From Sipunculus nudus (lineage: Eukaryota; Annelida; Sipuncula; Golfingiida; Sipunculidae): DNA of 64,000 nucleotides. Positions 6,114 through 59,662 of this stretch are shown piece by piece (the stretch's first letter is position 1; the number at the start of each line of letters is the position of its first letter). The stretch covers positions 56,210,250 to 56,274,249 of the forward strand of contig CM049318.1 in assembly GCA_026874595.1 (NCBI GenBank), given 5' to 3'. The notes below the pieces were generated by a model that saw only the letters and a list, made by a program, of their open reading frames with translations, was not told where the DNA came from and did no database searches. Made by a program: the position numbers and the translations under genes.

Positions 6114-6165
6114 TTGGAGATGGCTGTAAAGATTTTGGTACTCTTTATTTCTTTGTGTCTTACAG
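6114..6165 (+). CDS. Signal-peptide exon of CTLD gene copy 1
   Basis: Seventeen codons plus one base, encoding a short Met/Lys start and a hydrophobic core (ILVLFISLCLTG), followed by donor GTAGGA. It ends after base 1 of a codon, which joins in frame with the exon at 8641 (G+AA gives Glu). There are two in-frame ATGs six bases apart (6114 and 6120); either could initiate, and the second lies closer to the hydrophobic core. The signal peptide would direct the receptor to the secretory pathway. I found no equivalent exon for copy 2. Confidence 0.65.
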
Positions 6166-7289
6166 GTAGGACTTACCTCTCATATATCGGCATAGAGCCT
6201 TTGGCCATTGTTCCACTGTTTCATATTCAAGCAGCAGTGCACGAAATTCTTCTGGTCGGGATTAAAACTACGTCGGTCTCGGTTTGGCAGTCACACTGCA
6301 TTGTTTTTATACCGGACTCTACAAAACAGGAGTGTTGAATATAGACCTTAAAAATTCTGTCTGACATTGTAAAGCACTTCCGACGTTTGTTGTTCAGAAT
6401 GTATTATCGCCGATTATGTGGTTAAAACGGAACATTTTGTTCCGACTACCCGAAATTCGGAAGATTTGCTGAAAAGTTGGTCAGTTCAAACAATCGAGCT
6501 GTATGACCATGTTCCCACAGTCGATATTCTGAGATTCGGCAGCATTTAATAAAACAGCACGGTTTGTATAACCGATAGAAAGACCTAGCAATTTAGAAGC
6601 TAAGTGTGCCAGTCTTTTTTTTACACCCGATATGGTTTTAGGCCCATATTCCGGACTCCCTCCCAAAATTTAGAACCTACGATATCACTTCCAGACTTAC
6701 TGAGATTTGGCTTATCGGGTCCTCAGAGAATCTTGCTGTGTCTGACATGTCAAACTTTGGATTTTCGTTCGTCCGTAATTCGGGCATTCCGTACAGTTTA
6801 CTTAGCCTACTAAAAAAGACAGTTCGACCACAAGCAGTTTACATCCCGGGACATATGTTATCACGGAATAGTATTGAACATTAAACACTTTCCGCATGAA
6901 AATGTACAAGACATATATACATATATGTTCTCTTTATTGGGGATTTTTGTGTTTAATATTGTCAATAGTTAGGAATCAATGTGACTCGGAAGGTTTTCTT
7001 TAGATTGTAGAATTAGAAAAATAGTTCATGTTGGGACTTAATAAGATCGTTATCAGTAAATTTACTTAATGAATTAAGTAGGCCAAAAAATGATGGTAGA
7101 GTCAACAGGGGTCCGGTACGTAAACATAATTCACAAGCTCTGGTTATTGACGAAGATCTAGTTGGATTATGATTTTAAAAAGGGTGCGAAAGTCAATGAA
7201 TAGTGGATTTTTATTACTTTTTACATAGGAGAAGGTATGTGTCCGATACAGAGTTTGCTGTTTAAGGAAGAACTGTATTTACATTTTTT

Positions 7290-7930
7290 CTTATTGTTAC
7301 CTCCGCCAAGCCTAGCGGCGGGGGTTATGTGTTTGGGCGCGTATGTTTCTCTCTCTGTTTATCTGCTTATCTGTTATTCTGTTTATCTTTTCGTCTGTTA
7401 GCACGGTAACACAAAAAACCCTCAACCAGGTTTGATGAAATTATCAGGGTAGCTCGGCAATAATTCAAGGAACAATTGATTAATTTTTTTGGGGCGTCCT
7501 ATGCGTGAATAACCCATAACCCCTGAGTTTTAGTATTTTATGGGGGTAAGGGGTCCATATCATATATTTGTATACTCAGGTGGCGATATGGCCATATTTG
7601 GGGTGCGAGTCTTGATGTCACATAGGACAATGACGTCACTCTTGAGTATGTGCCGTTTCCCCGAAAGGTTTCGGTAAATCGACGTACTGCGGCGGGAGGG
7701 GGGGGGGGGGGTTAGGCCATGGTTGTTAATTGTTCGTTGTTAACGGAGTTTGATGAAATTTTTAGGATAGCTCGGCAATGATACAAGGATCTATTGAACA
7801 ATTTGGGGCCGATCCATGTTTAGAAAAGCCCGGAATAAGCTCTGATTTTTTTGGGTCTATTGCATATTTGCTTACACTGGGATGTTTGGCAGGTGATGAT
7901 ATGGTCTTATTTGGAGAGAGCCGTGACGAC
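7290..7930 (+). repeat. Two diverged direct copies of a roughly 310-bp dispersed repeat
   Basis: Landmarks such as TTTGATGAAATT, AGCTCGGCAAT and a GATATGGYCWTATTTGG block recur at about 7428-7620 and 7748-7905 in the same order. The block opens with ACCTCCGCCAAGCC followed by a CGGCGGGGGTTATG segment near 7300. A third partial copy starts near 8210. It sits in the first intron of CTLD copy 1. The open frame at 7778-7978 is repeat-derived. Confidence 0.55.
7688..7710 (+). repeat. Homopurine G-tract
   Basis: A run broken only at its start (GCGGGAGGGG, then uninterrupted G). It lies between the two copies of the dispersed repeat. G-quadruplex formation is possible but not shown. Confidence 0.8.
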
Positions 7931-8204
7931 ATAGAGCACAATGACGAGAGCTATAGTTTTTTTAGAAGTAGGGTGTAAGAGTTCTTATCTACGGAATATG
8001 GAATGTGTGTTGAGAGATTTTACATGAACCTGCACGGCTTCATGCATTTTTCTATGTGTTGCCGTTTGATAACATCCAGAAACTCACAATTCGCTACATA
8101 TAGCGATCAGTTTTACCGCTTTTATACGCTTTCCGCATTCCACATTCCGTACTCATAAGAAATCTTAGCTGTAGTCTGCAAATATATTCGACTTTAACTG
8201 TTTA

Positions 8205-8335
8205 TTACCTCCACTAAGCGGCAGGGGTCATGTTTTGCGGATGTTATTTTTTTTTTGTCTTTTAGCAACATAAGTAAAAAAATACTGACGGAATTTAATG
8301 AAATCTTCAGCTCAGCAAGGATGGAAAAAATTAAT
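8205..8335 (+). repeat. Partial third copy of the 7290 repeat family
   Basis: It starts with TTATTACCTCCACTAAGCGG and ends with a GAATTTAATGAAATCTTCAG-like segment, matching the head and the early landmark of the repeat at 7290-7620 with a large internal deletion. Confidence 0.45.
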
Positions 8336-8640
8336 TAAATTTTGATACGGAAACTTTTATTGATCCAGTAATATTTTAAAGGAAAAACGCTGCTTTTCTG
8401 ACAGTTCCATATGAGGCTAATGAGCTGACTTGGCGGAGGTCTACGCTCTCTGAGTGCTTTTCTAGTCTTTCTTATATTATGAAGATTATTCTTCGATAAT
8501 ACATGAACAGTTTCCATTGCTTATTTTCAAAGAATTCTTCGTATCCATAAGCAGTTTTGGTACAGCACAAATCTAAACGTTCACATTCCACAGCGTTATT
8601 ATATCTGCTTTAATTATCTAAATATATATTTATCCTGCAG

Positions 8641-8860
8641 AAGCTTCCCATCGTTCAACGTTCTTACATTCAGCCAGTCAGCACACGTATGATGACGCTA
8701 TTCAATACTGTTAACAAAAAGGACCGTATTTCCTGCCCGATGATCTCACGAACTCTACCGAACTGGCAAATATATTTGAGCGAAGAAGTAATAACGTCAG
8801 TATGGGTGGCACTGAAGAAAAAAGTGTTGGAAGACTGGACATGGACCAACGATGAGCCCG
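8641..8860 (+). pseudogene. CTLD1 first-half exon, copy 1, with stop and frameshift
   Basis: The acceptor TTATCCTGCAG precedes it and a GT donor follows. It encodes the first half of a C-type lectin-like domain: FLHSASQHTYDDAIQYC, then, after a TAA at 8712-8714, GPYFLPDDLTNSTELAN, then WVALKKKVLEDWTWTN in the next frame. The paralogous exon on the - strand (59444-59662) is 219 bases and fully open, with Lys where this one has the stop. This one is 220 bases, so one base has been gained around 8785-8800. The WTW core and the first domain cysteine are kept. Both defects lie inside a strongly conserved exon, so the exon cannot be translated as it stands. Confidence 0.75.
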
Positions 8861-9557
8861 GTGATTTTATAATTAAACATATTGTTTAAGTAGCCCAAAA
8901 ATCTCGTGTTTAGGGTTTTTTTCTGATTATTACATGGTGACATAGCACATATTTCAAAGGACCATGTTCGAAAGACGGCCTTGTAATATATATTTTATGA
9001 CGCTATAAAACTTGCTTAAAATATTAAAACATGAATTAAGATTTTAAACTTGCTGAGAAAGTAAAACTAGCTCAAAATATTAAAACCTGAATACAGATTC
9101 TTATTATAACAATAAATGCTTCTCTTGCATTTAGGTCTCCATTTGTAATGACAAAGCAAAAACTACAGTCAACAATACTATATGTTCTAATGCAGTTTTA
9201 GCAAATTTGTTGACGAAAGTTTTCTATTTCTATTTCTTTTCTAAAAAATTCTATTTCAGGGACTCTTCATCACACACACAAATATGCTATTCGGGTGTCC
9301 TTATTTCTTTTAATTATTTTCCGTTTGAAAAATATGGCTGTCCAAATATGTCCAAAGGAATTTGAAAATGAGAGTCCTAGGAGAACCTCGCAAATGTTGG
9401 CTTTTTGCATCGTACTCTTTTAATGTGGTAGCGGGCCATACATATGTGCACCTTTCAAGAACGGGACTTCTTGTTATACTTGTGCTGAAAGGTATATGAA
9501 GACGTTTCTACCTGCTTAAGTAAGACTGCAGTGTCTTTGTTGTCGTTGTATTTGCAG

Positions 9558-9689
9558 GCATGAAGCCCTCGCAAGAGGAGCCTGATCGCGTTTGTGCCGG
9601 ACTGGTTACCAATACCATTCAGGTAACGAGACAGGCTAGGAGGTGTAACTACGGAGGACCACATGAAGGCTACATTTGTGAAAAACAAG
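9558..9689 (+). CDS. CTLD1 second-half exon, copy 1
   Basis: The acceptor TATTTGCAG ends at 9557 and a GT donor follows 9689. The exon has 132 bases, entering with two bases and leaving after one. It encodes the end of the lectin-like domain: DRVCAGL, then RRCNYGGPHEGYICE. The three cysteines correspond to the conserved C-terminal disulfide cysteines of the fold. It aligns residue by residue with 58994-58869 on the - strand (HACGGL, RCNYGGEREGFICE), which is two codons shorter. No lesion is seen. Confidence 0.75.
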
Positions 9690-9958
9690 GTTCGTATTTT
9701 ATTGAACACGTTTATTCATATGTAAGTGTTGCTTAATTGAAATGCTTATATTAAGACAGGATTCAAACATAAAGGTAACTAACTAGCTCGACCTTAAAAA
9801 ATACTTAAAACAACAAATGAACAGACGCTTTTTAATTCATTCATGAGTTAGAAGCTTATATGACTCTACTATAACTAGAACAGCTATCTGCATGAACCAT
9901 TAACATTTTGGGATTTTCGAAAGGAAAGAGACTGAAGCTGATTTGCTTTGTCGTCCAG

Positions 9959-10225
9959 GTAACACTGCCTGTGATGCCACAGCCCCTGATGAATACTGTT
10001 TCTTGGTTGGAAATTCGTCCTTCATCTTCATGTGTGGCATTAATGACTGGTATACGGCTGAGGGACGGTGTCGTAAGAAGGGACGAATGCTTGCCGTTCT
10101 GGACAGCTCGGAGAAAGTGGAAGCCTTTGTAAATGAGAAAAGCAAGCATTCAGAACTACGTTCGTGTACGTTTTATTGGTTTTGACTAAGAAAGGAAGAC
10201 TGGATTGCTGTCGGTCCAGATAAAG
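9959..10225 (+). pseudogene. CTLD2 first-half exon, copy 1, with stop
   Basis: A 267-base exon, flanked by TCGTCCAG and a GTAACA donor, encoding the first half of a second C-type lectin-like domain: EYCFLVGNSSF, INDWYTAEGRCRKKG, LAVLDSSEKVEAFVNEK, then FYWF, a TGA at 10183-10185, and LRKEDW. In this family the position after FYW(V/I) is normally Gly (FWIGL-type motif), so a single G-to-T change in GGA explains the stop. The rest of the exon stays open to the donor. The copy 2 counterpart is 57760-58028. The following exon, which should give the C-terminal cysteines of CTLD2, was not found before the linker exons. Confidence 0.7.
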
Positions 10226-10541
10226 GTAACACCGGCTTTGTTGAAACTGCTCTTAGTAGCAGCTTTCCCCTAAAACGACTCGAACATAAAGAAGTATCTA
10301 TATGTAGAACATATAATGGTACAATTAGTCTACCTCTGCTACAACGCCTTGTGAAACACCTGACAAACACATGACAATGACAATCAGTTATTGCTGAAGT
10401 AAAACCATAAGTATATTTACACATACATTTACAAAAACGCGGAAAAGATAATTATGCCATCAGCAAATAGGCATATATCTATTTAACTATAATTATTATC
10501 TCCGCCAATTGGCATAGGCAATCGATCTGGTTTGGTTCTAG

Positions 10542-12179: not shown

Positions 12180-12210
12180 TTGTTTATATGTGTTTGTTTC
12201 TCTTTACCAG

Positions 12211-12319
12211 ACCCTTCCAGAACCCACATGCCTTGGTTGATTCCGGTGATGTTAACAGCAGCAATGGCCTGCTTGATTCTGTTTTTATCGCCTGCAATTT
12301 TGTGTTTACGACGAAAGAA
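12211..12319 (+). CDS. Transmembrane exon of CTLD gene copy 1
   Basis: Acceptor TCTCTTTACCAG and donor GTAAGC flank 109 bases. The translation has a roughly 24-residue hydrophobic stretch (WLIPVMLTAAMACLILFL, then SPAILCL) ending in the basic stop-transfer run RRKK. The extracellular-N, cytoplasmic-C orientation follows the positive-inside rule and the upstream signal peptide. It splits after base 2 of the last Lys codon, exactly like the transmembrane exon of copy 2 (56713-56803), which also ends in RRKK. Confidence 0.75.
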
Positions 12320-12466
12320 GTAAGCATACAGTGACGGGCTTAATATTTCGAGTAAAACAGTTATATAAAATTGAAAGTTAACTTATCAGATGAAACTTAC
12401 AAGTTATTATCAGATAAGATATTTCAGAAATATGTAGTGATAAAACTGTGCAATTTACATATCCAG

Positions 12467-15213: not shown

Positions 15214-15324
15214 GCAACCGCCTAGGTCAGACAACTCGGCACCAGTCAAAGATGAAGAGAAACCACTGCTCCCCAAGGAATTCGAACTTTCTGGTAAAAA
15301 GGCCACAGAGATCAACAAACACAG
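15214..15324 (+). CDS. Cytoplasmic-tail exon 2, CTLD copy 1
   Basis: Acceptor TTCATATCCAG; 111 bases, phase one base in, two out; donor GTTTAG. It encodes QPPRSDNSAPVKDEEKPLL, then PKEFELSGKKATEINKH. The stretch EEKPLL fits the acidic di-leucine sorting pattern [DE]xxxL[LI], known to recruit AP adaptors for endocytosis or lysosomal delivery. Copy 2 has ENMRLL in its tail. The composition (charged, Pro-containing, no stop) supports coding. Confidence 0.55.
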
Positions 15325-29400: not shown

Positions 29401-29409
29401 TAATTATCT

Positions 29410-30630
29410 TTAGACGCCAGACGATACTTTGGCCTCCGTAGCGTCAAACTCTTGTTTAGAGTCACGAAAGGAGTTGTACCCCTTGTTTACATGAAAAGAG
29501 CTTGGCTCTTGTATTATGATATGCATAGATTTTGAAACAACACCAGAAGATCTGCTCTTTGGTTTATTTGCAAGTTTCATTTGAAAATGACTGGTCCTTG
29601 TAGGACTCAGACACAGTGGACGTGGACTGAGGTGTAGCAATGGACTTGGTTGAACTATCAGGACTACTAGTACTGGGTGACTGCGCTTTAACTTCTTTTA
29701 ACCATACTGATTTACTGATTTACATTCTTTTTTGTGCTTGACTGGTTTGATTTGCTAGTAAAGGACATTTTTGTTGTGTTAATGAATAATAATCAGCTAA
29801 CTGAGCAGCAATGTCAAGTGTTTCAGGACTTTTCTCATCAAGAAAAGTTTTAACATCTGCGTTAATGCAGCGCTCAAATTCTTCAAGCAAAATCAACTGG
29901 CGCAAATTGTCATAATCTTTCATTACATTTTTAGAACTACACCAGCAATCAAACGACTGCTCTTTTATCCTAGCAAATTCTACATAGGTCTGTTCTTTGC
30001 GCTTTTTCCAATTTCTGGCGGTAAGCCTCCGGAACTAACACATAACCTTTTAGGATTAACCGTTTAACCTGGTCATAGTCAGCAGTGGCTTCTACTGACA
30101 GCTCTGTATAAATTTCTCTGGCCTTGCCAGTCAATACATTTTGGAATAGCAAAGTCCAGTTTTCCTTAGGCCATTTTAAATTTTAACATCAAAACTGTGA
30201 GTTGTGGCAGCACGTAGATCATATTCTAACCAAGTCTTTCTAACTCCAGTCGTTTTAACTCAATTTCTTTTTCTTTTTCTAGTCTTCCTCTTTCTAACCT
30301 TGCATGTTCTTCCCTCTCTTCTCTTTGTTTTTCTAATTCTAATTGTTTTAATGCTAGTTCATGTTGCATTTCTAACTTTTTTTAATTCTAACTGCATAGC
30401 AAGGCTGTCATTTTTCTGTGTTTCCCCTTCACTCTCTTCAATTAAAACTTTGCTAACTAGATCATAGTAGAGGTGAAAAGGGGCATGATTTTAGCAATGA
30501 TATCAGGCTTTCTCAAAGTTTTTCTCACACCACAAGTGTTGTCCAAACGCAACAACTGATCTTTTGTCAACTGTTCAAGTTGATCAGGGTCGGGATCTTC
30601 AACAAATGTCTCAGGTTTGAAATCTGCCAT
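29410..30630 (-). pseudogene. gag remnant of a Gypsy-type LTR retrotransposon
   Basis: The ATG at 30630-30628 opens MADFKPETFVEDPDPDQLEQ, followed by an acidic and coiled-coil segment with repeated QLELEKQREEREEH-type residues (30400-30250). Then comes a SCAN-like Gag region with LTGKAREIYTELS and LILKGYVLVPEAYRQK (about 30130-30010), and DYDNLRQLILLEEFERCINA (about 29915-29860). Stops and frame changes interrupt it several times. SCAN domains are known to derive from Gag of Gmr1-like Gypsy elements, which supports the assignment. A primer binding site and LTR lie upstream on the same strand. No pol follows, because a LINE begins at about 29400. Confidence 0.7.
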
Positions 30631-30723
30631 GTTAAGATGTTAACTGAGATAAATCATGTAAACAATGTAATATAAGCAATGTCTCAGGGTCAAGGCCTAA
30701 CAAAATTTTAAAACTATTAAGCC

Positions 30724-30740
30724 TCCCGGACGAGACCCCA
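30724..30740 (-). promoter_or_regulatory. Primer binding site resembling tRNA-Pro type
   Basis: The - strand TGGGGTCTCGTCCGGGA differs at about one position from the tRNA-Pro-complementary primer binding site TGGGGGCTCGTCCGGGA known from several LTR elements. It is 94 bases upstream of the gag ATG and directly next to the LTR, as expected for reverse-transcription priming. Confidence 0.65.
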
Positions 30741-31495: not shown

Positions 31496-31548
31496 TTAAG
31501 TATAATAAAGTCAATATTATTATTATTGCCACCCTCCAAAGTGTAAAT

Positions 31549-34213: not shown

Positions 34214-34334
34214 CATATACCTGGGTTTCTGTGCAAAAGTATTTAGGCCCTTGACATGCCTGAAGTTACACGTTTGATTGCACTCTTTGGCTCGATTCCC
34301 ATTTCAGTTTACAGGGATATTTCTAATCTCCATA

Positions 34335-36290: not shown

Positions 36291-37075
36291 AAGTGGGACA
36301 TCGCCAACTCTCAAGATCTTGTGCTGCAAACTTGGTCAGACAGGGTTAAAATATCCTCTTATGCCAGAAATGTGGGCGTAATGATTGATTCCACTTTATC
36401 CACTCTACCTTAGATTTCTGGCATTGCAAGTTCAGAAAACTTCCATCTTAGATACATTGGAAATGTTTGCAAATTCTTGACCAAAGGGGCAACAGAACAG
36501 CTTATTCAGTCACTTGTAACATCTCGCTTATACTTTTGTAATGCCCTTCAGATCAAATCACCTGAAAGCAATCTTAGGAAATTCCAGCATGTGCAGAATT
36601 CCGCAGCAAGGTTTGAAACCAGGTCTTCTAGGTCAGTTCATATTACACCAGTCTTTCTATCTCTTCATTGTGGCGCGCATCCAAAATAAAGTTGCCTTTT
36701 TGACTTCAAAGCCCTGCGTAATAAGGCCCCTAGTTATATCATAGACATGTTGTCCACCTGTACACCACCTAGGCAACTTAGATATAGTCACGCAGGCCTA
36801 AAGCTTTTCGTAATGCTGCTCCTGGTCTCTGTAACTCTCATCCCATTGAGATTAGTCTGTGTGACTCTGTCAATTATTTTAATAGGCTTCTGAAAACATA
36901 CTTTCTCACACAAAGTGTTACAATAGTGAAATGTTTCTTTTATCAGTTATGTTCTTATTACTTATGTAATGTTCATTATAATGTCTTTTATATTTAGTGT
37001 CTTATGTGAAGCGCAGCTGGACTTTAATTGTAAAGGATTTTGCGCTATATAAATAAAATAAATAAATAAACAAAT
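36290..37075 (+). pseudogene. CR1/L2-like LINE, 3' end of reverse transcriptase plus tail
   Basis: The + strand gives VKISSYARNVGVMIDSTLS, FLTKGATEQLIQSLVTSRL, then HVQNSAARFETRSSRS and HITPVFLSLHC, the conserved C-terminal region of CR1/L2-clade reverse transcriptases. The family form is RxQNAAARLVT...HITPVLKxLHWLPV. It ends in TTTTGCGCTATATAAATAAA and a few TAAA repeats, the typical 3' tail. Stops and frame changes mark it as dead, and the 5' part is missing. Confidence 0.75.
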
Positions 37076-37216
37076 ATTAAAATATCGGAAGGCACTTCGT
37101 CAGACATTTTCAAATAAACCATAAAGAATACACAAATATAAAATATATAATATAAAATATTTGCACACTACAATTACCCAATAATTCTTTAATAAATCTA
37201 ATTATGTGTATGTAAA

Positions 37217-37217
<1 letters not shown>

Positions 37218-37285
<68 letters not shown>
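37218..37285. repeat. (CA)n(TA)n microsatellite
   Basis: A run of CA units, then TA units. Confidence 0.95.
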
Positions 37286-37287
<2 letters not shown>

Positions 37288-37394
37288 CAAACTAATTTAA
37301 AGCATTAGAAGTAGACATATACATTCACTGGACAGATGAAATTAAATATATTTTTTTTAAATGTTAAGTTTTTATCGTGTTTTATTCTTAACAG

Positions 37395-37870
37395 GATGGA
37401 AATACATGATTTGGAGACAACACCGGCGGTATGAGCTTCTGTTCTAATGCTCCTCTATTTTGTGTACATTATTTGTAAATATATATTATTACCAACAAGT
37501 TGACTTTTATTAAAACTACACCTCTTTTAATCTTTCAGAGACAGGCTTTACAAAACAATGCTGTTATTCCAAAGAATACAGTCAGAAATTGCAAACTCCA
37601 GGATACTATGATAACTACATATAAACCTATTTCAATTAGCATGGTCATGTCAAGTGATAGAGAAGATCATATGAATCTGTTCTTGCACGGGAAACTTGTA
37701 AGGAACGGGAAGATATTGAAAGCACGTTGTTATCAGTATTGCCTACGTATTATACCGGGATTCTTGGATGTAAGGGTACTGATGAAGACAATCTGAAATG
37801 TATGAACATGTTCGGAACACGGCGTGTTCTTGTTGATTAAACTACTACTTACTTTGAATTAACGTCGCTC
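37395..37870 (+). pseudogene. Unrecognised gene fragment, copy 1 (block A)
   Basis: A small exon 37395-37428 (acceptor TTCTTAACAG, encoding MEIHDLETTPA, donor GTATGA) is followed by one starting at 37539 (acceptor AATCTTTCAG) with RQALQNNAVIPKNTVRNCKL and ISMVMSSDREDHMNLFL. From about 37640 it is homologous to 40398-40640. Relative to that copy it has a one-base deletion after FL, and a TAA. The combined evidence suggests a real but unidentified protein family of which two broken pieces lie here. Confidence 0.4.
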
Positions 37871-38410
37871 AAGTGTATTATTTCATGCATTCACGAAACA
37901 ATTTATATAACTTAGTAATCGTCTCTAGCTCTGTACTTCTGTTCGGTTACTAGGATATCTTATGTTTCTACCCGAATATTAGTTGATATTCTACCATTTT
38001 ACAAGAACATGAAGGTCCTCTCAGTAGAAGATAACAATCACAGTCCGACTGTTTAACTAGATTGGCCCTCCAATTAATAATAACCACGAATTATTTTACT
38101 AGTTATGATGCAATAGGAATTTCAAGAATTGGTGAAAACATTTAGTTATGAATTGAGGGTAGTTATTTATAATCATAAGGAGCCATAGTTCAGTATTTAA
38201 AATATTTTATTTCACCTCAACAATAGTACTTACCCTAATGGCCTCCTGGGAGGCTGCGAGAAGTCTGTGTACAAACTACAGTAGGCTAGAACAAATTAGG
38301 ACTCATCACTGGTGCATCATACAGGGAACATATCATACCAGCATTACAAGATCTGCACTTGCTCCCTGTAAGGCAGAGAATTACATTTAAATAACTTTAC
38401 ATAAATGGTG
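37860..38410 (+). repeat. Segmental duplication block B, copy 1 (with CR1-like LINE piece)
   Basis: It matches 41885-42530: TGCATTCACGAAACAAT, then CTGTTCGGTTACTAGGATAT, AATATTAGTTGATATTCTAC and CTAATGGCCTCCTGGGAGGC. Copy 2 has an extra segment of about 110 bases near 41995-42108. The right part encodes a CR1/L2-like fragment (LITGASYREHIIPALQDLH). Confidence 0.75.
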
Positions 38411-38411
38411 T

Positions 38412-39540
38412 ATGAGAATACTTGGTAATTTTGATGAAAAATAAAATGATTATATTCAGTCATATGTTTTGTGGTCCTCATATACAAATTACTCATAGAA
38501 GTTCTTGTCCAAATTAATATTAATAATAATCATACTTCTGTGTCCTTTCTGTAAAAGCATTCGGTAACAAACCACAGAATTAAATGATTGATTTAGAATA
38601 CCAAACTTGCAAGTTATGCCGCAACCCAAACACCCTCTCCCACAGAACCACGCTGTGGAGGAAATTTTAAATTAAATAGTAAAATTTAAAAATTCTGAGG
38701 CACATTCTCTTGAATAGAATCCTCTACTGAATTCAGATACATTTAATGGCCTGTAAAGGTCTGAGATGTATTGTCTTCTGATCTACCACTGGCGATAAGA
38801 AATTTCAGTTAATTCAGCTGATCTTTTTGTCATGAAAACAATACAAATTTTTCACCAAATCTATACATGAATGTAAAAGGTGGTAAATGTAATTGTCATT
38901 TAAATAAATCTATTGATATGGAGTTTGGAGGGCCGCTGCCATGCCCACCAAATGCCACACGTTCAACTGATACTATGCAGACAGTTATTGTCTATTGAAC
39001 AAATCGTGTCAAGAAAACAACATTATCATGCCATTTAAATTGATGTAATCAATGAAAATTTAATAAAATACCTTTTTAATAAAACTGCGCAAATTGCATA
39101 TAAAGTAATCTCCGATTCTGAAAAAAAATTGCGCTAAACTCGATTAAAATGACATATTAAAGCATGGTATTTTTTTCGAGGACATTACCATGAAAGAAAC
39201 AACTTTGTTCACAGTTTTGTGGTACACTTTTTTCTCACTTCTCCCAAACAGTTGATAATCCCGGATGGGGTAAGGTTGGGGATGGGGGGATGTAGCACTT
39301 AAAAGAATTATCACCATAAAAGCAAATATCAACATGGTGTTGCACATTGACGCTGTCTGCAAGGCGTAGACCTTCAGGCAGAAATGGTTCCGTTAGAAAC
39401 CCTTTGGAAATGAAGGAAAGCGGAACAGTGGGGGATTTTCAGAAAAAAATAAACAAGCACCCCACCACAAAGCTCTATAAACTTAGAAAAAAAGTAAAAG
39501 TTGAACAAGGAGACAGAAAATTTAATCTCCGAAAAAGCAT
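38412..39540 (+). repeat. Segmental duplication block C, copy 1
   Basis: It matches 47498-48670 in order: GTGGTCCTCAWATAC, CATTTAATGGCCTGTAAAGG, GGCTGCCATGCCCACC and GTAGACCTTCAGGCAG. It includes the short frame RRPSGRNGSVRN in both copies. Its nature is unknown; no protein family is recognised. Confidence 0.75.
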
Positions 39541-40140
39541 CCGTACGTTAGAGGTAATACCCAGTGGTCCGCTCTCGCTCTGAGGTTTATATAATATGAA
39601 AAGCAGCTATAATTAAACCTACCTGCCTTTTATATAGAGTTTATGTGATTTCTGGCTCATTATGTCTACACATTAATGAAATCTAGGTCATTCCTGTAAA
39701 GAAAGTTCTAAACGTCTTCGTGATGGATCAATGAGATTGTTTATCTATTAGCTATGAGTAAAAATGGCAATGTTGACAAAGGGAACATATACACCAAAGT
39801 AGAATGGCCACTAGAACGCTCTTTATAAAACTCCGGTTCGTCTGACTTGCAGCCACATATGTTTGTTGAATGTAGTTCGAGCGCCCCCAAGTGTTATAAA
39901 CAGTCGACTTTATCACATCCTACAACATATGTGCAGTGGAATTGCGATCTCTCTGGTCTATTTTTGTAACAGGTTTACGGGGTAATCGTGAGTCTACAGA
40001 CCTCAGATATCCTAATACGCGCCCCTAAAAGTAACTGTAAATCTTTCTTTAAATTTCGTACACTGCTCCACTGTTGGCTCTTTATACCAATACCTTGTTT
40101 TTGATGTTATTTCTTACCTGGACAATAAACTTTTTTTTCA
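39538..40140 (+). repeat. Segmental duplication block D, copy 1
   Basis: It matches 34335-34960 and runs straight on from block C. Its CATCCGTACGTT...GGTAAT start joins C without a gap, so C and D probably form one unit. It ends at GACAATAAACTTTT. Confidence 0.75.
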
Positions 40141-40397
40141 GACGTTTCCTTCGATAACTACGGTTATGATTAAAAAAGAAATCATCATTAAACATTTAGT
40201 CGATGATAATTACAAATTGCAGATTTCAGGTGTTGGCATACAAAATGTAATGACTGTCGCCAAATATTTCCGAAACGGCTGCAAATTTCATCACTATATG
40301 TCACAGGAACATTGATCATTTCACTGGTATACGATACATAGGATACATTGTCCGTCGTCCATTAGACTGTGCGCTTTGAAACCGTTGGACCTACGTC

Positions 40398-40948
40398 ATG
40401 TCAAGTGATAGAGAAGATCATATAAATCTGTATCTGGCACGGGACACTGGTAAGGAACGGGAAGATTTTGAAAGAACGTTGTTATCAGTATTGCCTAAGT
40501 ATTATATCGGGATTTTTGGATGTGAGGGTACTGGTTGGGACAACCTGAAATGAAAGAACATGTTGGGAACACGACGTGTTCTTGTTGATTCAACTACTAC
40601 TTACTTTAAATTAGCGTCGCTCAAACGTCTGGCACCAGGTATGTCATTATTGAAACTAACGGCGAGACTCACAGTGAGATAGTGACAGAATTCTTACCCA
40701 AGTTTAAGGACAAATTGATACTCATTGCGAGAGCCCGCCAGGCTTCTGGTGATTTAAGAACAGATGATATCATTTCTGTTGGGATGCTTTTTGGGGAGAC
40801 TGGATATGGCTGTGCACATGTGGAAAATCCACATTTCCTTGTTTTTACGGATTATTATAAACACAAATTGTACCTCGAAACAGAAGGGCAGCCTGATTCG
40901 TATGAAATAGCGCTTTGGACACAGCTATTGTTTCATCAGTTGTACTAA
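40398..40948 (+). pseudogene. Unrecognised gene fragment, copy 2 (block A, longer)
   Basis: It opens MSSDREDHINLYLARDTGKE, then LLSVLPKYYIGIFGCEGTG, a TGA after DNLK (near 40550), and TRRVLVDSTTTYFKLASLK. One frame change near 40630 leads to YVIIETNGETHSEIVTEFLP, then KDKLILIARARQASGDLR, a Gly-rich MLFGETGYGCAHVE and a stop at 40946-40948. The long open C-terminal part with balanced composition looks like genuine protein. I cannot name the family. Copy 1 stops matching near 40625, so the C-terminal part is unique here. Confidence 0.45.
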
Positions 40949-41111
40949 TGTTGCCTAGTGCGAAAAGCACTATACGTGACAATTTCTATGCTTGCATTCC
41001 TATTACATATATACATGTATGTACAAAGTATGGACATAAATGCTTAATGTTTACGATCCAAGTGTTAGCTTCAATGTCTTTTATATGCTCCTATTTGAGT
41101 ATTATATTAAC

Positions 41112-41228
41112 AGGCGCGGATCCAGGAGTTTTTGCAGCGAGAGATCAACGGGTGTCTTGCATAAAAATTGTCTAAAAAAGTTCATTGGTTAAGAGCAGGG
41201 GGGGGTCGACTTGGATCCGCGCCTGATT
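41112..41228. mobile_element. Short GCGGATCC-ended MITE (hAT-like)
   Basis: The left end CAGGCGCGGATCCAGG and right end TTGGATCCGCGCCTG are inverted repeats. ATTAA flanks both sides, a possible target duplication. Internal DNA is only about 85 bases, so it is non-autonomous. It overlaps the end of an open frame that is therefore not a gene. Confidence 0.65.
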
Positions 41229-41884
41229 AATGCTGTTAATACATACAAACATGATTTATACTTATCGCTACACACTATAAATCTCTCTGATTCCTGGTAT
41301 TTTTGTGTATTTTGGTAATGCATTGAATATGTGATCAATTACATGAGAAACAAGACAGTTTTTAAAGTTACTCTGAATATTTAATATTTAAGTATTTATT
41401 TGCGTGCTGCAATTTCTGTAGAATTCCAAATGTACTGTTGTAAAATATATTTTTTAATGTCCATGTTTTGAAGACTGGAATTAAACCGAACAATCGAAGC
41501 TGAAGTCGACAGTTGTGATGCGAGGGATACTGAGGCGGATGTGCAGCCACCCAGGCCGGATGATTGACGGGAGGGCTTCGGTGTCCTTTCCTCTTAAACT
41601 GGGATAAATTTAAGACAATCCTTGATGAGACTGTAACATAAGAACAATGCACCCACACTGCACTGTACATTTAAGGAATATGGAGCTTTATTGATAGAAA
41701 TTTTGTGTGTGTACATTTAAGACACTATTTTAAGAATGTGTAAGTGTCACAAAGATTAAGTCAATACTTCATTTCAAATCATAAAAACACCTGTGTCATG
41801 TGCTTTAAAAACCGAATTAACAACCTTCATATGAACTGAAGTACCCTTTGGATCTTCACCGCATTAAAAGTATTTTATTTGTTG

Positions 41885-42990
41885 TCCATTAAATGTTAAA
41901 GTGCATTATATTCGTGCATTCACGAAACAATATATATGACTTAGTAATTGTCTCTGTACTTCTGTTCGGTTACTAGGATATCTTATGTTTCTAGGTCGTC
42001 TGTAAATATTTATTTTCTCCATATGGAACCATTATAATCCACACAGTATGGATGTATTAGAGACTAATGATTTTAATCTCTAAACAAACTCCACATTCGT
42101 CTATATACCCGAATATTAGTTGATATTCTACCATTTTAAAAGAACATCAAGGTCCTCTCAGTAGAAGATAAAAATCACAGTCCGACTGTTGAACTAGATT
42201 GACCTTCCAATTGATAATAACCATGAATTAGTTTACTAGTTATGATGCAATAGGAATTTCAAGTATTGGCGAAAACATTTAGTTATGAATTGATGGTAGT
42301 TATTTATAATCATAAGGAGCAATAGTTCAGTATCTAAAATATTTTATTTCACCTCAACAATAATACTTATCCTAATGGCCTCCTGGGAGGCTCCGAGAAG
42401 TCTGTGCACAAACTACAGTTGGCCCAGAAAAACTTAGCAAGACTCATCACTGGTGCATCATACCAGGAACATATCATACCAGCATTACAAGATCTGCACT
42501 GGCTGCCTGTAAGGCAGAGAATTATATTTAAGAAATGAGCAGCCATACAGAAAACTTTGCACTCTGCATTGCACCACAATACCTCGAAGATCTGTGCTGT
42601 AGTTTTCAAGCCCACAGAGCCTTGCAATAATCATCTGACCAATGGAAACTTGACGTCTGAAAGACATCAAACCGGTATTGGGCTAGGCCATTCAGAACAT
42701 TTAGTGCCATGTTATGGAGTGAGTTACATTTAGCTATCCGAGAAGCAATTTCACAAGCATTTTTTAGAAATCACCTCAAAACTCCCTTGTTCAGGTGATT
42801 TTGCTGAATCAATTATTATTAGTAAAACATATATTTTTACTTTTTATATTGTAATATTATGATGCAGTATCAAACTACGAATCCCTTTTATGTGTCTTTT
42901 ATAATATCTAAAAAGGTATTTTATTAAGTGAAGCGCATTGAAACTTTAAGTACATTTGCGCAATATAAAAATGAATATAATAATTATAAT
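41885..42990 (+). pseudogene. Block B copy 2 and CR1/L2-like LINE 3' end
   Basis: The left part repeats 37860-38410. From 42387 it reads KLQLAQKNLARLITGASYQE, then HIIPALQDLHWLPVRQRIIF, the conserved C-terminal reverse transcriptase segment of CR1/L2-type LINEs. It goes on to a 3' tail with TGAAGCGCATTGAAAC...TTTGCGCAATATAAAAATG and AATAAT repeats. Stops and frameshifts make it inactive. The LINE may have been carried along with the duplicated block. Confidence 0.7.
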
Positions 42991-51832: not shown

Positions 51833-52011
51833 TCACATAGAGTCTGAAAGTATACGTTTAAGTTTTGACCAGTCCAGGAGGAATGACCACGGATCTAGAA
51901 TTTCGTATCCTTCATCCTTCGTGAACGTTTCAGGGTGGCTACACATCTGTCGAAGAATATCTCGCATAACTTCTGTACTCTGTAGCTGCTTTAATTGTTC
52001 TGGCCGCACAC
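51833..52011 (-). CDS. Last exon of the unknown minus-strand gene
   Basis: 179 bases, two bases of a split codon plus 58 codons and TGA. The predicted product is helical and charged (QLKQLQSTEVMRDILRQMC, then TFTKDEGYEILDPWSFLLDW). A good acceptor and a clean frame make this the best-supported part of the gene. Confidence 0.55.
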
Positions 52012-54970
52012 CTAGATAAAACAGAGATATTATGTACAAAGTCATTTATTAACCACACCTCTCCACGCCTCTTAATAATGCCCACTTATCTGAATAATGA
52101 GACATTATTAATGCCACTATTTCTAATGCCTTACATTTTCCTTTTCATCTGTGACTCAAGTCGTGAACTGAAAATATTCCATTATTTAATCCTTCCTTAT
52201 ATTAAAAGAACATAACATTTGGCATCTTCTATGTGTAATAACAAGTGACCCATAAGTCACGACGCTCACCTGCCAAGCAAACCATCTAGGCCATTCACAA
52301 CAGGAATTTAATCATCTGAAGCTAAATTGGGATTAACCTTAATTATGATCTTGACTTTCTGACAAATGCATAGAAAATACAATAAATAATACAGGCGGCA
52401 CAATCATTCTCGGGAACTGATAAAGCTAGTCATGATCAATAAACATATAAGATTTCAAGACACTCGATGATACCACATCTCAGAAACTGACACGTTCTTT
52501 AATTTTGCAATCTAAGGAGAAAAAGCGTGGAAAAATACAAGCGGCGCCATCAGTCTTTGGAAACTGATAAAACTAGTCAAGATCAACATGTATGTATACA
52601 TTATTGTTATGATCTGGTGAAAATTATTTGTCAAAGAACCTTGAACAATAGGTAAATTTTTTGCCCAATTGCCTTAAAAAATAGGTAATAACGCCCTTAT
52701 TAAACGCTTCCAAGAGAATTTTACTAGGAACTCTAAAGATGCTTAGTGAGAATTTTTTTACGTCAAAGTGCTACGACTTGTGTCTTTCTGATTTATAGGA
52801 TGCTCAAATAATAATCTTTCACATAACTCACAGAATATAGGTCATAGTGACCTTATTTTGGATGTCCCAGGAGACAATTCAGTGACCTGCCTTTACATTC
52901 AGAAAGACATTTCTCGTGACCTTCTGCATGCTCAAAAAAATGTTTCTGCTCGTAGCTCACAGAATTTAGGTCACAGTGACCTAATTTCATGTTTCCCAGG
53001 AGATTTGCCCAGAGCCTCCTTGGATTTTGAATCAGATGATTCAAGGCCTAACGGTTACAATTTGTGTTGTGTATGACTGTTTGGCTGCTCAAATCATTAT
53101 TTATCTACAGCTCACAGAATATAGGCCACAGTTACATAATTTCATGTGTACTAGGACATTTGTCGAGAACCTAGATTCTAGGCTAAATCAATACAACCTG
53201 TGCCCACCTCCGACTTCTGGTTGCCCAAAATCATGTTTTCGGCCAGTAGTTCACATAATATACGTCACCGTGACCTAATTTGATTTTTCCGAGATTTGCA
53301 TAGGACCTCCCTAGGTGTGCGGTTACGCTTTGTTCCCTGTTAACGTCAAGACTGTTTCATTTGAAGTTCTCAAAAAAGGGTAAAAATAAAGGTCTTCGGG
53401 AACTGAAGAAACTGTCAGTGTTCAATATGCATGGAAAGAATCATGGCAATCAGTGTGTTTGTTATTGACCTAATGGAGCTTTAATTATTCTAGGCAGGCC
53501 CCATAGCTTAGAAAATATAGGTAACAGTGCCCAAACTCCAAGCGTCCAAGGAGATTTTTATTGATCCCCCTGGATGTTAAGTGAGAAGATTTCAGGTCCA
53601 GCGGTAACGATTTGTGCCCTGTTGACGAACGGACAGATGGACTGACGGACGGAGGACAGACAAAGACTGATCGCTATAGGTCAGATGACTTTCAAGTCCA
53701 ACGAGCATTGACTTAAATGAAGGCACAAATTTAATGCATACCAGGCGTGGCATAATGGTGGACATTTTAAGAAGGTTACTACTGCCGATAAAAACTGTTT
53801 AAGCTTGTGTGGGCATTGTCTGTTACATTGAAAAATATATATTGACCATTTTAATACAGAGAACATTTTTAACCTTTTCTTTTATTTTTTAATGGTTTAT
53901 GAGGCATATTGATCTGCAACAATTGCTATTTTCTAAGTTACATGTCAGATTTAGTAATATGTTGTACAATGAATATTTCGATAACACTCAAACGCTTTGC
54001 TACCTTCAAGGATGATAATCATTGTATATCTTTGTTTCTCTCCTGCAATAGAGTTTCACGAATGTAGGTTAGTCATATTAAGATATGAGCGTATTTGGCA
54101 GTTCACTACATAGAATACTGAACTTCCATTCTTCACAAAAACATTACCATCTCTCTATCAAATACAAATGACAGAAATGAGATTACCGTAGCCTGAGGCG
54201 AGCTGAATAACAACTGCCGCCACTGCTGCCGTGAACCAGGTCGCAAATTCATGCGGCTTAGGGGTCTCTGGTGTAGGTCTTGTTGTGCTGATAGTAACCA
54301 GTATAGACCAAAAAAAGAGGATCTCCTGTGACAACCTCGTTTCTAGACTTGTCTGGTATTTCGTAAATAGCAGTAACCGACATTGTTTGATGTTTTGACA
54401 AGTCCCAGATCTCTCATCTGGGTATGCACTTCGTATTAGAATTGACTTCTGACTTAGTCTAACGACGGTTTCGGGGTTCTTTAAGTTCTCGTTTGTCCTT
54501 TCATTTCCTATTTCATATATAATGATATTTGGTGTATCTCGTAAGTGGATATCGGCAAATAATCTACTTGCGCCATCAGTGTCGTCAAACATAAATGCCT
54601 TAAATTTTATCATACTGATGAATAAAGGACGGCTTTCATCTTGTCCATATCCCAAAATACGTTTCAGAAATCTTGGCAGATATGCCTGTGTCCTACTTTT
54701 AATCAAATCGTTCACTGTCGAGTTGTCTGCTGACAGGGAAATTTACTAAATGGGCTAGCTGAACATTTGAAATAACGATAGCCAGTTTAACATTTGTCTT
54801 GAGAATCTTGTTCATACTAGCCAGTTTATTGCGATCTTCTGCAGAATTCTTAGGTATCACTGGACAGATCGACAAAGGTGTCGGCTGGAAACAGATAAAT
54901 AATAATATTATGTAGAGTATAAAATTACCGTATTTTGATATCAGATGCACACTCCGAGTATGCCAGTCCA
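51833..54970 (-). CDS. Unknown secreted or membrane protein gene, two exons visible
   Basis: Exon 1 runs from about 54970 down to 54187 and exon 2 from 52011 to 51833; donor GTAATC and acceptor TTTTATCTAG join in phase (G+GT gives Gly). The start region has a hydrophobic signal-like stretch (GNFILYIILLFICF), unless the TCTGTTTCCAG within it (ending near 54890) is a splice acceptor. Then come EDRNKLASMNKILKTNVKLA, QAYLPRFLKRILGYGQDES, NIIIYEIGNERTNENL, a Cys pair in GTCQNIKQCRLL, EFATWFTAAVAAVVIQLASG, and in exon 2 RPEQLKQLQSTEVMRDILRQ and LLDWSKLKRILSDSM followed by the stop. One frame change near 54735 interrupts exon 1, so it may be broken or contain an assembly error. I do not recognise the family. 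It lies downstream of CTLD copy 2 on the same strand. Confidence 0.45.
52839..52853. promoter_or_regulatory. Perfect AGGTCA-n3-TGACCT palindrome (site 1)
   Basis: AGGTCATAGTGACCT matches the oestrogen-response-element consensus for steroid-type nuclear receptors. It is part of a dispersed repeat, so any function is unproven. Confidence 0.4.
52968..52982. promoter_or_regulatory. Perfect AGGTCA-n3-TGACCT palindrome (site 2)
   Basis: AGGTCACAGTGACCT is the consensus oestrogen response element, 129 bases from site 1. A third, weaker one (ACGTCACCGTGACCT) is at 53262-53276. Confidence 0.4.
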
Positions 54971-55640: not shown

Positions 55641-55642
<2 letters not shown>

Positions 55643-55920: not shown

Positions 55921-56053
55921 CTAGATGAAACTGCAGCTGAGAAAACTGACCAACGCCGCTTTGTCACTTGAGAGGAGTCTCATGTTCTCGTGTGCATTGT
56001 TTCCCTCCTTTGCGTTCATTGCTGCTCCAGTTACAGACAAAGCGCTGTCCCTC
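55921..56053 (-). CDS. Cytoplasmic-tail exon of CTLD copy 2
   Basis: Acceptor TGCTTCTTCCAG; 133 bases, one base entering, then 43 codons and TAG at 55923-55921. It encodes RDSALSVTGAAMNAKEG, then NAHENMRLLSSDKAALVSFL. ENMRLL fits the [DE]xxxL[LI] sorting pattern, as does EEKPLL in copy 1. The tail is much shorter than the five-exon tail of copy 1. Confidence 0.6.
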
Positions 56054-56513: not shown

Positions 56514-56514
<1 letters not shown>

Positions 56515-56554: not shown

Positions 56555-56558
<4 letters not shown>

Positions 56559-56712
56559 ATATTAGTTCATGCAGCTTCAGCATTTTTTTTAATTTCTTAA
56601 AACAGTGAACATATCATTCAACGACATTTTCTTGCGATTTTCTTCTGACAAATTTTATTCATAATTTTGTGTGATATTTATGAATATGTTACCTCAACTT
56701 TTATATGCTCAC

Positions 56713-56803
56713 TTCTTTCGGCGAAAATAGAACATGGTTGCGGTTGCAATGAAAACAAGGCCGGCAATTATTCCTAGCAATACAAGAATCAGCAATATGG
56801 GGA
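56713..56803 (-). CDS. Transmembrane exon of CTLD copy 2
   Basis: Acceptor ATATTTCAG and donor GTGAGC flank 91 bases encoding PILLILVLLGIIAGLVFIAT, then ATMFYFRRKK: one membrane-spanning helix with a small-residue GIIAG step and a basic stop-transfer end. It ends in RRKK and splits the last codon after base 2, like 12211-12319, although the helix sequence itself has diverged. Confidence 0.75.
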
Positions 56804-57178
56804 CTGAAATATAAATAATAACTAAAGACATATGCATATACATATACATAGACATATACATATGCTTTTAAGCTAAATCACACCAAACATCAAATAGCAT
56901 TTCTGGCAATCTTAATCGACTGTATACATAGGCCTATGGTGAAAGAATAAGGTCATTCTTGTAAACATTTAAATTTAAGGTTATCATAAAAATTCAAACA
57001 ATATGACACTTCATGCAGTACAACGTTTTTGTACAGTGCTCATCCCTAAGAGTGAAAAAAGTGGTTAATGAATATGTAAATGTGTAGAATTAAAATATTC
57101 ACGTTAGTGCACTCTGAGCATTCTGAATAATATCCCGCTTGCTGTCTTTTCAAATACAGTCAGAGACTGGTATAATAC

Positions 57179-57345
57179 CTGCAGTTGAACTTTGTCCTGG
57201 TTAGATGACAAACACCGTGGTTTCCTTTTTCGTACATTGCTGGTTGTCCATTGAATTTGTCCTTCGACCAATTTTGCAGTGGAACAATTCATTCCGTTTT
57301 GGGGTTGTTCATGAGCCCAATACGATTCCTTCAGTTGCCTGTCAC
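57179..57345 (-). CDS. CTLD2 second-half exon, copy 2
   Basis: Acceptor TAATATTCAAG (complement of 57346 on); 167 bases. It encodes SYWAHEQPQNGMNCSTAKLV, then QIQWTTSNVRKRKPRCLS. EQPQ-x3-NCS, QW and the last Cys match the end of a lectin-like domain (EP.., NC, W, C). Its entry phase fits 57760. Its end is uncertain: CAG/GTATTA gives phase 0, which does not fit the transmembrane exon. No counterpart was found in copy 1. Confidence 0.55.
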
Positions 57346-57759
57346 CTTGAATATTAATGGTAAAATTATGTTTTCTTTTATGCTTATCTTTTATCTTATC
57401 CCCGTTTTGACGGCTCTATTCCAAAAACAATATTAATTTACTGAAAGCCATTGTGCCCATAATCGATTAGGGAATTAACGGAATATAGGGAGGTAAACAA
57501 AATTAAAGCCTAAACGGGCATATGTATATTTTACCAGTGACACAGTTCTTTCTTCTTTCATATATAAATATTTTCTACTAATTTTGGCAGTTTTGAAAAT
57601 ATTTTCAATCATTAAAATAACTTTAACCTTATTTTAATTTTGAAAAATGTCGATATAGCACAGTTTGAAATAACGAGTCTCTAGTGATGAAATAATGGTA
57701 AAGATACAGATTTAAGGAAATTTCATATCTACAAAGAGTAGAATACCCAGCTGGCTCAC

Positions 57760-58028
57760 TTTTGTCTGCGTTAACAACAGTCTAGTCTTCCTTTCTCAGT
57801 CCTACCCAATAAAATTACAAAATGATATGCTTGCAGAATACTTGTTTTTCTCGTCGACAAATGTTTTCACTTTTTCGGAGTTGTCCAGAACAGCAAGTAT
57901 CCACCCCTTTTTGCGACACCGTACCTCCGCCGTGTACCAGTCATTAATGTCACACTGGAAGGTGAAGGACGAATTTCCAAAGGTGAAGCAGTATTCACCA
58001 AATGATGATCCAGAGCAGTTGGCATTAC
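57760..58028 (-). pseudogene. CTLD2 first-half exon, copy 2, with frame break and stop
   Basis: Acceptor GTATTCACGCAG; 269 bases, two more than the copy 1 exon. It encodes GEYCFTFGNSSFTFQC, DINDWYTAEVRCRKKGW and LAVLDNSEKVKTFVDEK, closely matching 9959-10225. Just before the conserved FYWVGLRKED segment the frame is lost, and in the frame that restores this motif the Trp after Asp is TAG. The GTGAGC donor follows AAAA. It is disrupted in the same motif as the copy 1 exon, by different changes. Confidence 0.65.
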
Positions 58029-58868
58029 CTGCGTGAATACATTAAAACAGAAATGCAGACTTTTTTGTTCATGGGTTCCAAATAGTAAATAATAATCCGC
58101 CAAGAAAATTTATTTAGGAGTTCAATGTAAAAAGTACAATATACGTACAAAATAACTGTTGTTGAACAATATGGACGATTAATTGCCGCGGTCAGAGTAT
58201 GTCCGTGTGTATATTTTTGTGTTGGTTCACAACATAACTCATGCAATCATTAGAATTTCATGACATTTTCAGGGCATTTCTGGAATGGGCCAAAGAACAA
58301 TTGATTAGAATTTGGTGTGGGTCCGCTTCATCATCCGGATCCATGAATGACTTCCCTGAATATTAACATATCTACATTCACTTATGCAAGAATGAACCTG
58401 GGAATTTTGGCCATATAGAAGAATGCAAACACGTTTTTAGGAGCATCCCACATTAAGGACTACCCACATAACGGAGGCCTGTCTTCCGAGAAAAGCATAT
58501 TTTAATTTCTCCGTGTATATAGGACTCAAGTACGCTTAATTTGTTGCGTCGGGGACTGCCGTTCTATAGAGCGTAGCGCTTTTTTGTTTCCGTTTACTCC
58601 AGAACAATGGTATAATTTAAATTCATAGAAGTCGAACATAGAGATTGAAACAATATGACCACATTTTTCAGTCTAAAGTCTGCAAAGGTTTGGTTTGTTG
58701 TTCAATATGTAGACTGGACACTTAAAAACACACCTTGAATAAAACAGCGTTGTCTATGAATCAATCACAACTTATTTAACTGCTATACGCTTTCGTACTC
58801 TTAATTCAAATAAAACATAAAGGTTTGGGAAAAAAATGACACATAGCAGAAGAATAAAAAATAAGAAC

Positions 58869-58994
58869 CTTGATCTTCACAGATAAACCCCTCCCTCTCT
58901 CCTCCGTAATTACACCTCATGGCTCGTATCTTAAGCGCGACCGTTGACAGGCCGCCACATGCGTGATGAGGCTGGTCTAAAAATGGTCTGCTTC
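58869..58994 (-). CDS. CTLD1 second-half exon, copy 2
   Basis: Acceptor TTTTATTGTAG and a GTTCTT donor flank 126 bases encoding SRPFLDQPHHACGGLST, then RAMRCNYGGEREGFICEDQ. The cysteine spacing is that of the C-terminal half of a lectin-like domain. Open throughout, and in phase with both neighbours. Confidence 0.7.
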
Positions 58995-59086
58995 CTACAA
59001 TAAAACTCATCATGGATATGTTCAAATGGAAATAATACTTTTTTCTATTTGCGGTAAAATCATAATTCTGCTCACTTAAATGTAAA

Positions 59087-59256
59087 CAGTAAAACCTCGC
59101 CGAACCAACACCTTGGTTTAGCGACCACCTTAACTGAACGACCACTTGTTCACGGTCCCGATTCTCTTTTTATCAGACCTCGCTTAGACGACCACCTCGA
59201 AAATGCAACCGCTTTATTGAGGTCTGGTTGGCGGTATTAATTTCGAGGTTTCATTG
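59087..59256. mobile_element. Short pogo/Tigger-like MITE
   Basis: The left end CAGTAAAACCTCG and the right end, read inverted, CAATGAAACCTCG form 13-bp terminal inverted repeats of the CAGT-AAACCTCG type seen in pogo-like elements. Inside are AACGACCACTTG / AGACGACCACCTCG phrases. 170 bases, no coding capacity, in the intron between the two CTLD1 exons of copy 2. A TA target duplication is not clear. Confidence 0.5.
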
Positions 59257-59443
59257 TTTCATGTTTATTATTTTAAAAAATCGAGGATTTTTTTTCTGAT
59301 TAATTTTCTAAAATTATATTTTCTAAAATCGGTTCTAAGAGATCTTAATCTAACACAGTTGTCGTGCCTTGGGCACTGAATCCAAGTGCATCCGTTTATT
59401 TCAATTTTTTCCATTTATGGCTTCAACAGTAAATAGCACTCAC

Positions 59444-59662
59444 CGGGCGAACCATTTGTCCATGTCCAGTATTTCAATGTCTTTTTCTTCAGTGCCATCC
59501 ATGCTGACGTTAGTCCTTCGCCTTTCATATATATTGCCAGCTGGGTAGAGTTATTGAGTTCATCTGGTAAGAAGTACGGCCCTTGCTGTTTGCAGAACTT
59601 AACAGCGTCCTCATACGTTAGGTGGTTGTCTGAATGTAAGAACGTGGTCTCCTCGGAAAATA
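59444..59662 (-). CDS. CTLD1 first-half exon, copy 2 (intact)
   Basis: Acceptor TTTTTGTACAG and consensus donor GTGAGT flank 219 bases. It encodes FSEETTFLHSDNHLTYEDAV, KFCKQQGPYFLPDEL, then TSAWMALKKKTLKYWTWTNG. The first domain cysteine and the WTW core are present. It is the open version of 8641-8860, with Lys where copy 1 has a stop. This is the best single exon in the window. Confidence 0.8.

Follow-up and report, generated by a model that had tools for sequence, protein, structure and literature searches.

We analyzed a 64,000-nucleotide stretch of the Sipunculus nudus genome (hereinafter the window; window position p corresponds to C13:56210249+p), together with 100 kb of flanking DNA on either side, for a combined span of 264 kb. 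Near the two ends of the window, on opposite strands and facing each other, lie two copies of a gene (copies 1 and 2) with the layout of a type I membrane receptor, in which two C-type lectin-like domains (CTLD1 and CTLD2, each split between an a and a b exon) precede a transmembrane (TM) exon. Both copies are disrupted, and a sister gene without lesions (copy 3) lies to the left of the window. The coordinates of the features are given in Table 1; the signal exon of copy 1 is putative, and the tail exons were chosen by eye.

Two disrupted copies and their unbroken relatives

The order of exons CTLD1a, CTLD1b, CTLD2a and TM is common to copies 1 and 2, and blastn aligns their DNA at 78% over 207 columns in CTLD1a (8658-8864 and 59645-59440, E 1.2e-41), 75% over 61 columns in CTLD1b (9640-9700 and 58918-58858, E 2.8e-5) and 78% over 228 columns in CTLD2a (9987-10211 and 58000-57774, E 1.9e-45); the CTLD2a proteins match at 62% over 73 residues. 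The DNA match between the TM exons is confined to 32 bp (12297-12328 and 56735-56704, 81%, E 0.051), and both exons are hydrophobic, with RRKK codons at the end and a phase-2 donor. The intron phases of the two copies match those of two unbroken relatives (ends 1,1,1,1,1,2). The mirrored, homologous pair that had been recognized in an earlier, sequence-only reading of the window is thus borne out by DNA similarity, exon order, phases, orientation and the shared end of the TM exon.

All the lesions of the two copies, which amount to three in-frame stops plus three changes of frame, lie in the lectin exons (Table 1). In CTLD1a, copy 1 reads QYC*QKGPYF against KFCKQQGPYF in copy 2, and a frame shift follows in copy 1; in CTLD2a, the stop of copy 1 falls within FYWF*LRKEDW, and the frame change of copy 2 is followed by GAC-TAG. 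Copy 3 is open at the places of these lesions. No CTLD2b exon was found in copy 1 with two CTLD2b queries. Signal exons were sought upstream with a simple scan, which identified none in about 8 kb before copy 2 and three candidates in 6.8 kb before copy 3, one of them resembling the signal exon of copy 1. No open frame runs from a signal exon through the TM exon in either copy, and neither copy, as assembled, encodes the receptor.

Because stops and frame changes are present in both copies, a working mirrored receptor pair was rejected. The sequence-only reading had presented copies 1 and 2 as two receptor genes, the products of which combine a modular stalk with a long tail. Such working genes are highly improbable: exon order, phases, the TM exon and the first tail exon have been kept, and the ratio of nonsynonymous to synonymous substitution rates (dN/dS) of 0.36 between the copies reflects past constraint, but the lesions lie in conserved lectin exons, two of the expected exons were not recovered in the searches made, and pieces of the stalk have no counterpart elsewhere in the 264 kb. 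Two 42-bp pieces of the copy 1 stalk were compared with this span and matched nothing below E 2 apart from copy 1 itself; judging by the sequences compared, the stalk is not reproduced in the relatives.

Copy 3 (+ strand, window coordinates -34329 to -23681) starts 40 kb left of copy 1 and can be spliced from six exons, with end phases 1,1,1,1,1,2, into a frame of 313 amino acids (aa) that runs from signal through TM without a stop. A distant paralog at C13:9318989-9322211, denoted m1, splices into 301 aa, also without a stop and with exon phases identical to those of copy 3. The layout CTLD1a-1b-2a-2b-TM with this series of phases is therefore complete in copy 3 and m1 and present as remnants in copies 1 and 2. 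Copy 4, a divergent member located at about -47.6 to -53.8 kb (- strand), is represented by CTLD1a-like and TM-like pieces detected by search and a CTLD2b-like piece found by reading. To the right of the window, a search of the 100 kb at a cut-off of E 0.05 gave no match to any receptor piece. The further copies that the earlier reading had proposed to look for beyond the window, one open and one divergent, lie within 100 kb to its left, and intact relatives with the same domain order, which it had expected in related genomes, are found in this one.

In the Pfam search, CTLD2 exceeds the curated cut-off of Lectin_C in both unbroken models (7.8e-12 in m1 and 3.7e-13 in copy 3), and no other domain was detected at 0.01 in either the 301 or the 313 aa protein. 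A sequence search against the Protein Data Bank (PDB) aligned CTLD2 of m1 with the mannose receptor (E 1.4e-9) and CTLD1 of m1 with the domains of CD69 (E 1.4e-4) and KLRB1 (E 0.003). The classical motifs of calcium-dependent sugar-binding lectins are EPN or QPD, and WND. None of the nine CTLD2b sequences examined contains them, and because these sugar-site motifs are absent, the ligand is more likely to be a protein, or else a glycan that binds in a different manner.

Behind the TM exon, an AG-GT exon with [DE]xxxLL, an acidic dileucine sorting motif, is present in each of copies 1, 2 and 3 and in m1; its start in phase 2 is the one that the TM exon calls for. Because phase and motif agree in all four, the first tail exon can no longer be called unsupported. 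The motif occurs in 141 of 5061 exon-like background pieces from the 264 kb (2.8%), and since the four exons were chosen by eye, the comparison of four out of four with this background gives no fair probability. The shared motif suggests an endocytic or uptake receptor. The long tail claimed earlier is thereby supported in part, for its first exon; the remainder has no match between copies 1 and 2 (none below E 0.05 in the DNA beyond that exon), and in copy 1 its span crosses a tandem array (14058-15074, units 76% alike at an offset of about 274 bp) located between the TM exon and the probable tail exon. The first tail pieces tried produced self-matches only, with the next best at E 0.43 and 0.59, and the m1 tail had one 15-residue match to later m1 DNA (E 0.021). 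Two similar long polar open frames, resembling a duplicated tail exon by eye, lie behind m1 at C13:9325618-9326037 and 9328485-9328859.

Relatives across the genome and the status of the two copies

A genome search with CTLD2a of copy 3, in which 150 of 398 candidates were scored, gave at least 149 CTLD2a-like exons, 13 of which contain stops, as counted among the matches listed. The corresponding search for CTLD1a (150 of 279 candidates scored) gave at least 27 matches, including four pieces of copies 1-3; 11 of the other 23 have a listed CTLD2a downstream of them, at most 10 kb away and in the same orientation (10 on C13 and one on C16). Twelve loci that lie outside the cluster (L032-L043) all have CTLD1b upstream of CTLD2a (weakly in L042), with CTLD1a upstream in 10 and CTLD2b downstream in seven when flanks of about 1.5 kb are considered; stops are present in L040, L042 and L043. 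Altogether, the two-CTLD order occurs at 21 or more loci among the matches listed, namely three in the cluster, these 12, and six further pairs. Judging by these genomic sequences, a type I membrane receptor family with two CTLDs is present in the genome and expanded, as had been suggested; the facing pair itself comes down to the inverted orientation of one unit in a local cluster of four or more.

Copies 1-3 group in a single clade with support of 100/99 when a tree is built from 14 CTLD2a sequences (L042 was omitted from the set of 15); 7 of the 11 inner branches of that tree are weak. Pairwise dS among the three copies is 0.72-0.78 and dN/dS is 0.31-0.36 over 198-249 codons, which implies a long period of constraint before function was lost; copies 1-3 accordingly appear from their sequences to be old and to have been constrained for much of their history. 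The blastn matches between copies are exon-sized (61-228 columns, 75-78%), with no long near-identical tracts, which speaks against the idea that the remnants donate sequence to copy 3 by gene conversion. A related proposal is that copy 2 yields a secreted or truncated CTLD1 product; its CTLD1a and CTLD1b exons are both open, with splice sites present, but no signal exon appeared in the 8 kb scanned upstream. There is only a slim chance that either partial role applies.

Homology, exon order and phases, the lesions, the unbroken relatives, the single local clade and the shared tail motif are consistent with a window that probably contains two pseudogenes, both belonging to a large and clustered family of two-CTLD membrane receptors of type I. 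Because an unbroken sister lies just outside and many relatives exist in the genome, the window is best seen as one part of a large receptor family where genes are decaying, and not as a new system. The layout as such survives, because unbroken members with it and with a first tail exon exist.

Several observations weigh against the assignment to such a family of lectin-like receptors. CTLD1 falls under the Pfam cut-off (9.2e-4), the CTLD2a exon of either window copy, when searched alone against Pfam, gave no Lectin_C match, and the ectodomain of copy 3 gave no match at 0.01 in the PDB sequence search. Among the matches listed, 12 of the 23 CTLD1a exons outside the cluster have no CTLD2a partner, and protein searches among the tails of copies 1, 2 and 3 and m1 gave no match below E 0.1. 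Furthermore, the gene models are predictions from genomic sequence and the lesions are known from the assembly, in which an error at all six sites is unlikely.

In the working form represented by copy 3 and m1, six exons would encode a hydrophobic N-terminus, CTLD1 (two exons), CTLD2 (two exons) and a TM segment with a basic end, to be followed by a tail, the first exon of which bears the dileucine motif. The protein would reside at the cell surface, bind its ligand through the paired CTLDs and be internalized via the dileucine motif, that is, function in recognition and uptake; an immune role of the family is plausible. The family would grow and decay through duplication and loss.

Gene X and the interval between the copies

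Behind the receptor, on the same strand, either a second gene (gene X) or its C-terminal exon is found in all four units, and the open form follows copy 3. A genome search with gene X retrieved five matches, all within this cluster, and neither Pfam nor the PDB sequence search gave any. By eye, its motifs are subtilisin-like without the catalytic residues. In one poor AlphaFold model, proteases of the S8 family were the top 13 fold matches, none at E 0.001 or below; for a second poor model, no S8 protease was among the 50 fold matches listed. Alignment with one S8 exon by hhalign had a probability of 0.4% (E 0.15). When compared with its shuffles, S8 ranked 8th of 2001, and phmmer with the same exon as the query did not retrieve gene X. 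Gene X is fast-evolving and may be a dead subtilisin, for which the evidence is weak.

The genome does contain recognizable S8 exons, with 27 matches; among them, C13:55815783-55816424 is clearly similar to subtilisin (PDB 3.7e-15) and lies about 0.33 Mb to the left of the copy 4 unit. Clusters of exon-sized S8 frames of about 274-311 aa, along with shorter ones, are located at C13:28.8-29.0, 34.1-34.3 and 55.816 Mb, C17:37.05-37.63 Mb and C15:53.04-53.08 Mb. One S8 frame, L046, may be an active protease exon because it keeps the DSG, HG and GNSYA motifs and has AG directly before its start.

The association of gene X with the receptor in all four units would also be expected if X were the 3' part of the receptor gene (2xCTLD-TM-X). 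This arrangement is unlikely: the TM exon of m1, which shares the ectodomain, is followed by 8.8 kb without an X match, the recognizable S8 exons are not at CTLD2a places among the matches listed, and the subtilisin reading of X is itself weak. It is equally doubtful that the duplicated unit is a functional pair, in which a two-CTLD uptake receptor would be linked or fused to a fast-evolving inactive subtilisin-like protein and kept in at least four units, in the manner of the linked receptor-ligand or receptor-effector pairs of other immune clusters.

Under the pseudogene interpretation, copies 1-3 would derive from duplication of a unit that includes gene X, with copy 2 inverted and the function of copies 1 and 2 lost later. 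With the unit of receptor and X duplicated, in one case in inverted orientation, no special significance has to be sought in the way the copies face each other. The 39-kb interval between the copies, described earlier as transposon-rich, does not consist of transposons alone, given that 29407-42350 carries duplicated DNA also present downstream of copy 3. A Pfam search at 0.01 with six open frames from 17-55 kb was negative, which leaves the presence of transposons neither demonstrated nor excluded; the frame at 26867-27286 (- strand), one of the six, resembles, by eye only, the end of a reverse transcriptase. A direct repeat (32909-33431 and 33698-34220) reflects a recent local duplication, because its copies are 98% identical over 526 columns and lie 0.8 kb apart. 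A tandem array at 62355-64276 (offset of about 180 bp, 80-86% between units) continues past the right end of the window.

Table 1. Exons, gene X pieces and duplicated blocks in and around the window (window coordinates)
Feature	Position	Strand	Remarks
Copy 1 signal exon (putative)	6120..6166	+	MAVKILVLFISLCLT, phase-1 donor
Copy 1 CTLD1a exon	8637..8862	+	TAA at 8712-8714; 1-bp insertion near 8769
Copy 1 CTLD1b exon	9557..9691	+	open
Copy 1 CTLD2a exon	9958..10227	+	TGA at 10183-10185
Copy 1 TM exon	12210..12320	+	RRKK end, phase-2 donor
Copy 1 probable first tail exon	15214..15324	+	EEKPLL; 46-column match to copy 3, E 0.087
Copy 2 CTLD1a exon	59442..59662	-	open
Copy 2 CTLD1b exon	58867..58995	-	open
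Copy 2 CTLD2a exon	57761..58029	-	frame change near 57815; TAG at 57784-57782
Copy 2 CTLD2b exon	57197..57346	-	frame change near 57240
Copy 2 TM exon	56712..56804	-	RRKK end, phase-2 donor
Copy 2 probable first tail exon	55951..56053	-	ENMRLL
Copy 3 first tail exon	-23045 to -22947	+	EQESLL
m1 first tail exon	behind TM exon		ESERLL
Duplicated piece of DNA downstream of copy 3	29407..31116	+	75-82%, out of order
Block collinear with DNA downstream of copy 3	35624..42350	+	69-83%, with insertions; contains broken gene X pieces
Broken gene X pieces	37361-41635	+	in the block collinear with copy 3 downstream DNA
Gene X relative downstream of copy 2	51836..54742	-	open frame 54742-54161; C-terminal exon 51988-51836
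Gene X relative downstream of copy 4	-55.0 to -61.9 kb	-	receptor's strand

Comparison with known lectin-like receptors

Members of the mannose receptor family have a cysteine-rich and a fibronectin II domain before the CTLDs and mediate uptake via tail motifs. The proteins described here are likewise type I with tandem CTLDs, and macrophage mannose receptor 1 is the best PDB match of m1; they differ in having two CTLDs instead of eight and no cysteine-rich or fibronectin II domain in the models of copy 3 and m1. CD69 and the NKR-P1 type receptors are type II proteins with one CTLD. The alignments of m1 CTLD1 and the lack of the classical sugar-site motifs are points of resemblance to this group, from which the type I orientation and the second CTLD set the present family apart.

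Among the matches listed in the genome, 57 Lectin_C matches fall within open frames 329-441 aa long; they have near-equal scores, are spread over many contigs and in some cases stand two or three in tandem about 1.4 kb apart (for example, C7:29985589-29988791, C8:54904953-54906688 and C13:31268861-31270607); this repeated frame has possibly been spread by a mobile element.

Genes of this general type have been tied to parasite resistance in vector snails, and the locus records how members of one large family of lectin-like surface receptors arise and decay; it also illustrates that pseudogenes can pass for receptors when judged by layout alone. Copy 3 and m1 provide exact unbroken models for work on expression, uptake and binding, and gene X, if it is a true dead subtilisin, merits separate study.

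The closest published analogue, likened here by description, is found in the polymorphic transmembrane clusters of Biomphalaria, where GRC/PTC1, PTC2 and linked genes form clusters of single-pass, receptor-like membrane genes that are subject to gain and loss, in some cases contain C-type lectin domains, and are tied to schistosome resistance (PMC7494358, PMC10875847). B. sudanica BSUD.4089 has a C-type lectin domain and one TM segment, and for BSUD.4003 a match to a subtilisin prodomain is listed (PMC10875847); the PTC2 genes are reported to have no known domain except TM, the word lectin being absent from the text (PMC7494358); the family described here differs in its two CTLDs in fixed order. 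Mollusc C-type lectins, which number mostly more than 100 in gastropods and about 200 in bivalves, with up to 300-500 in many species, likewise form large families, with expansions that include lineage-specific subfamilies (PMC10140915). A gastropod type I subfamily with two CTLDs is not described in the available portion of that survey (PMC10140915), and no title or abstract opening among those listed in literature searches names one, which is not proof of absence. By this comparison, the two-CTLD family appears to fit the picture formed by the membrane-gene clusters of snails and the expansion of lectins in molluscs.

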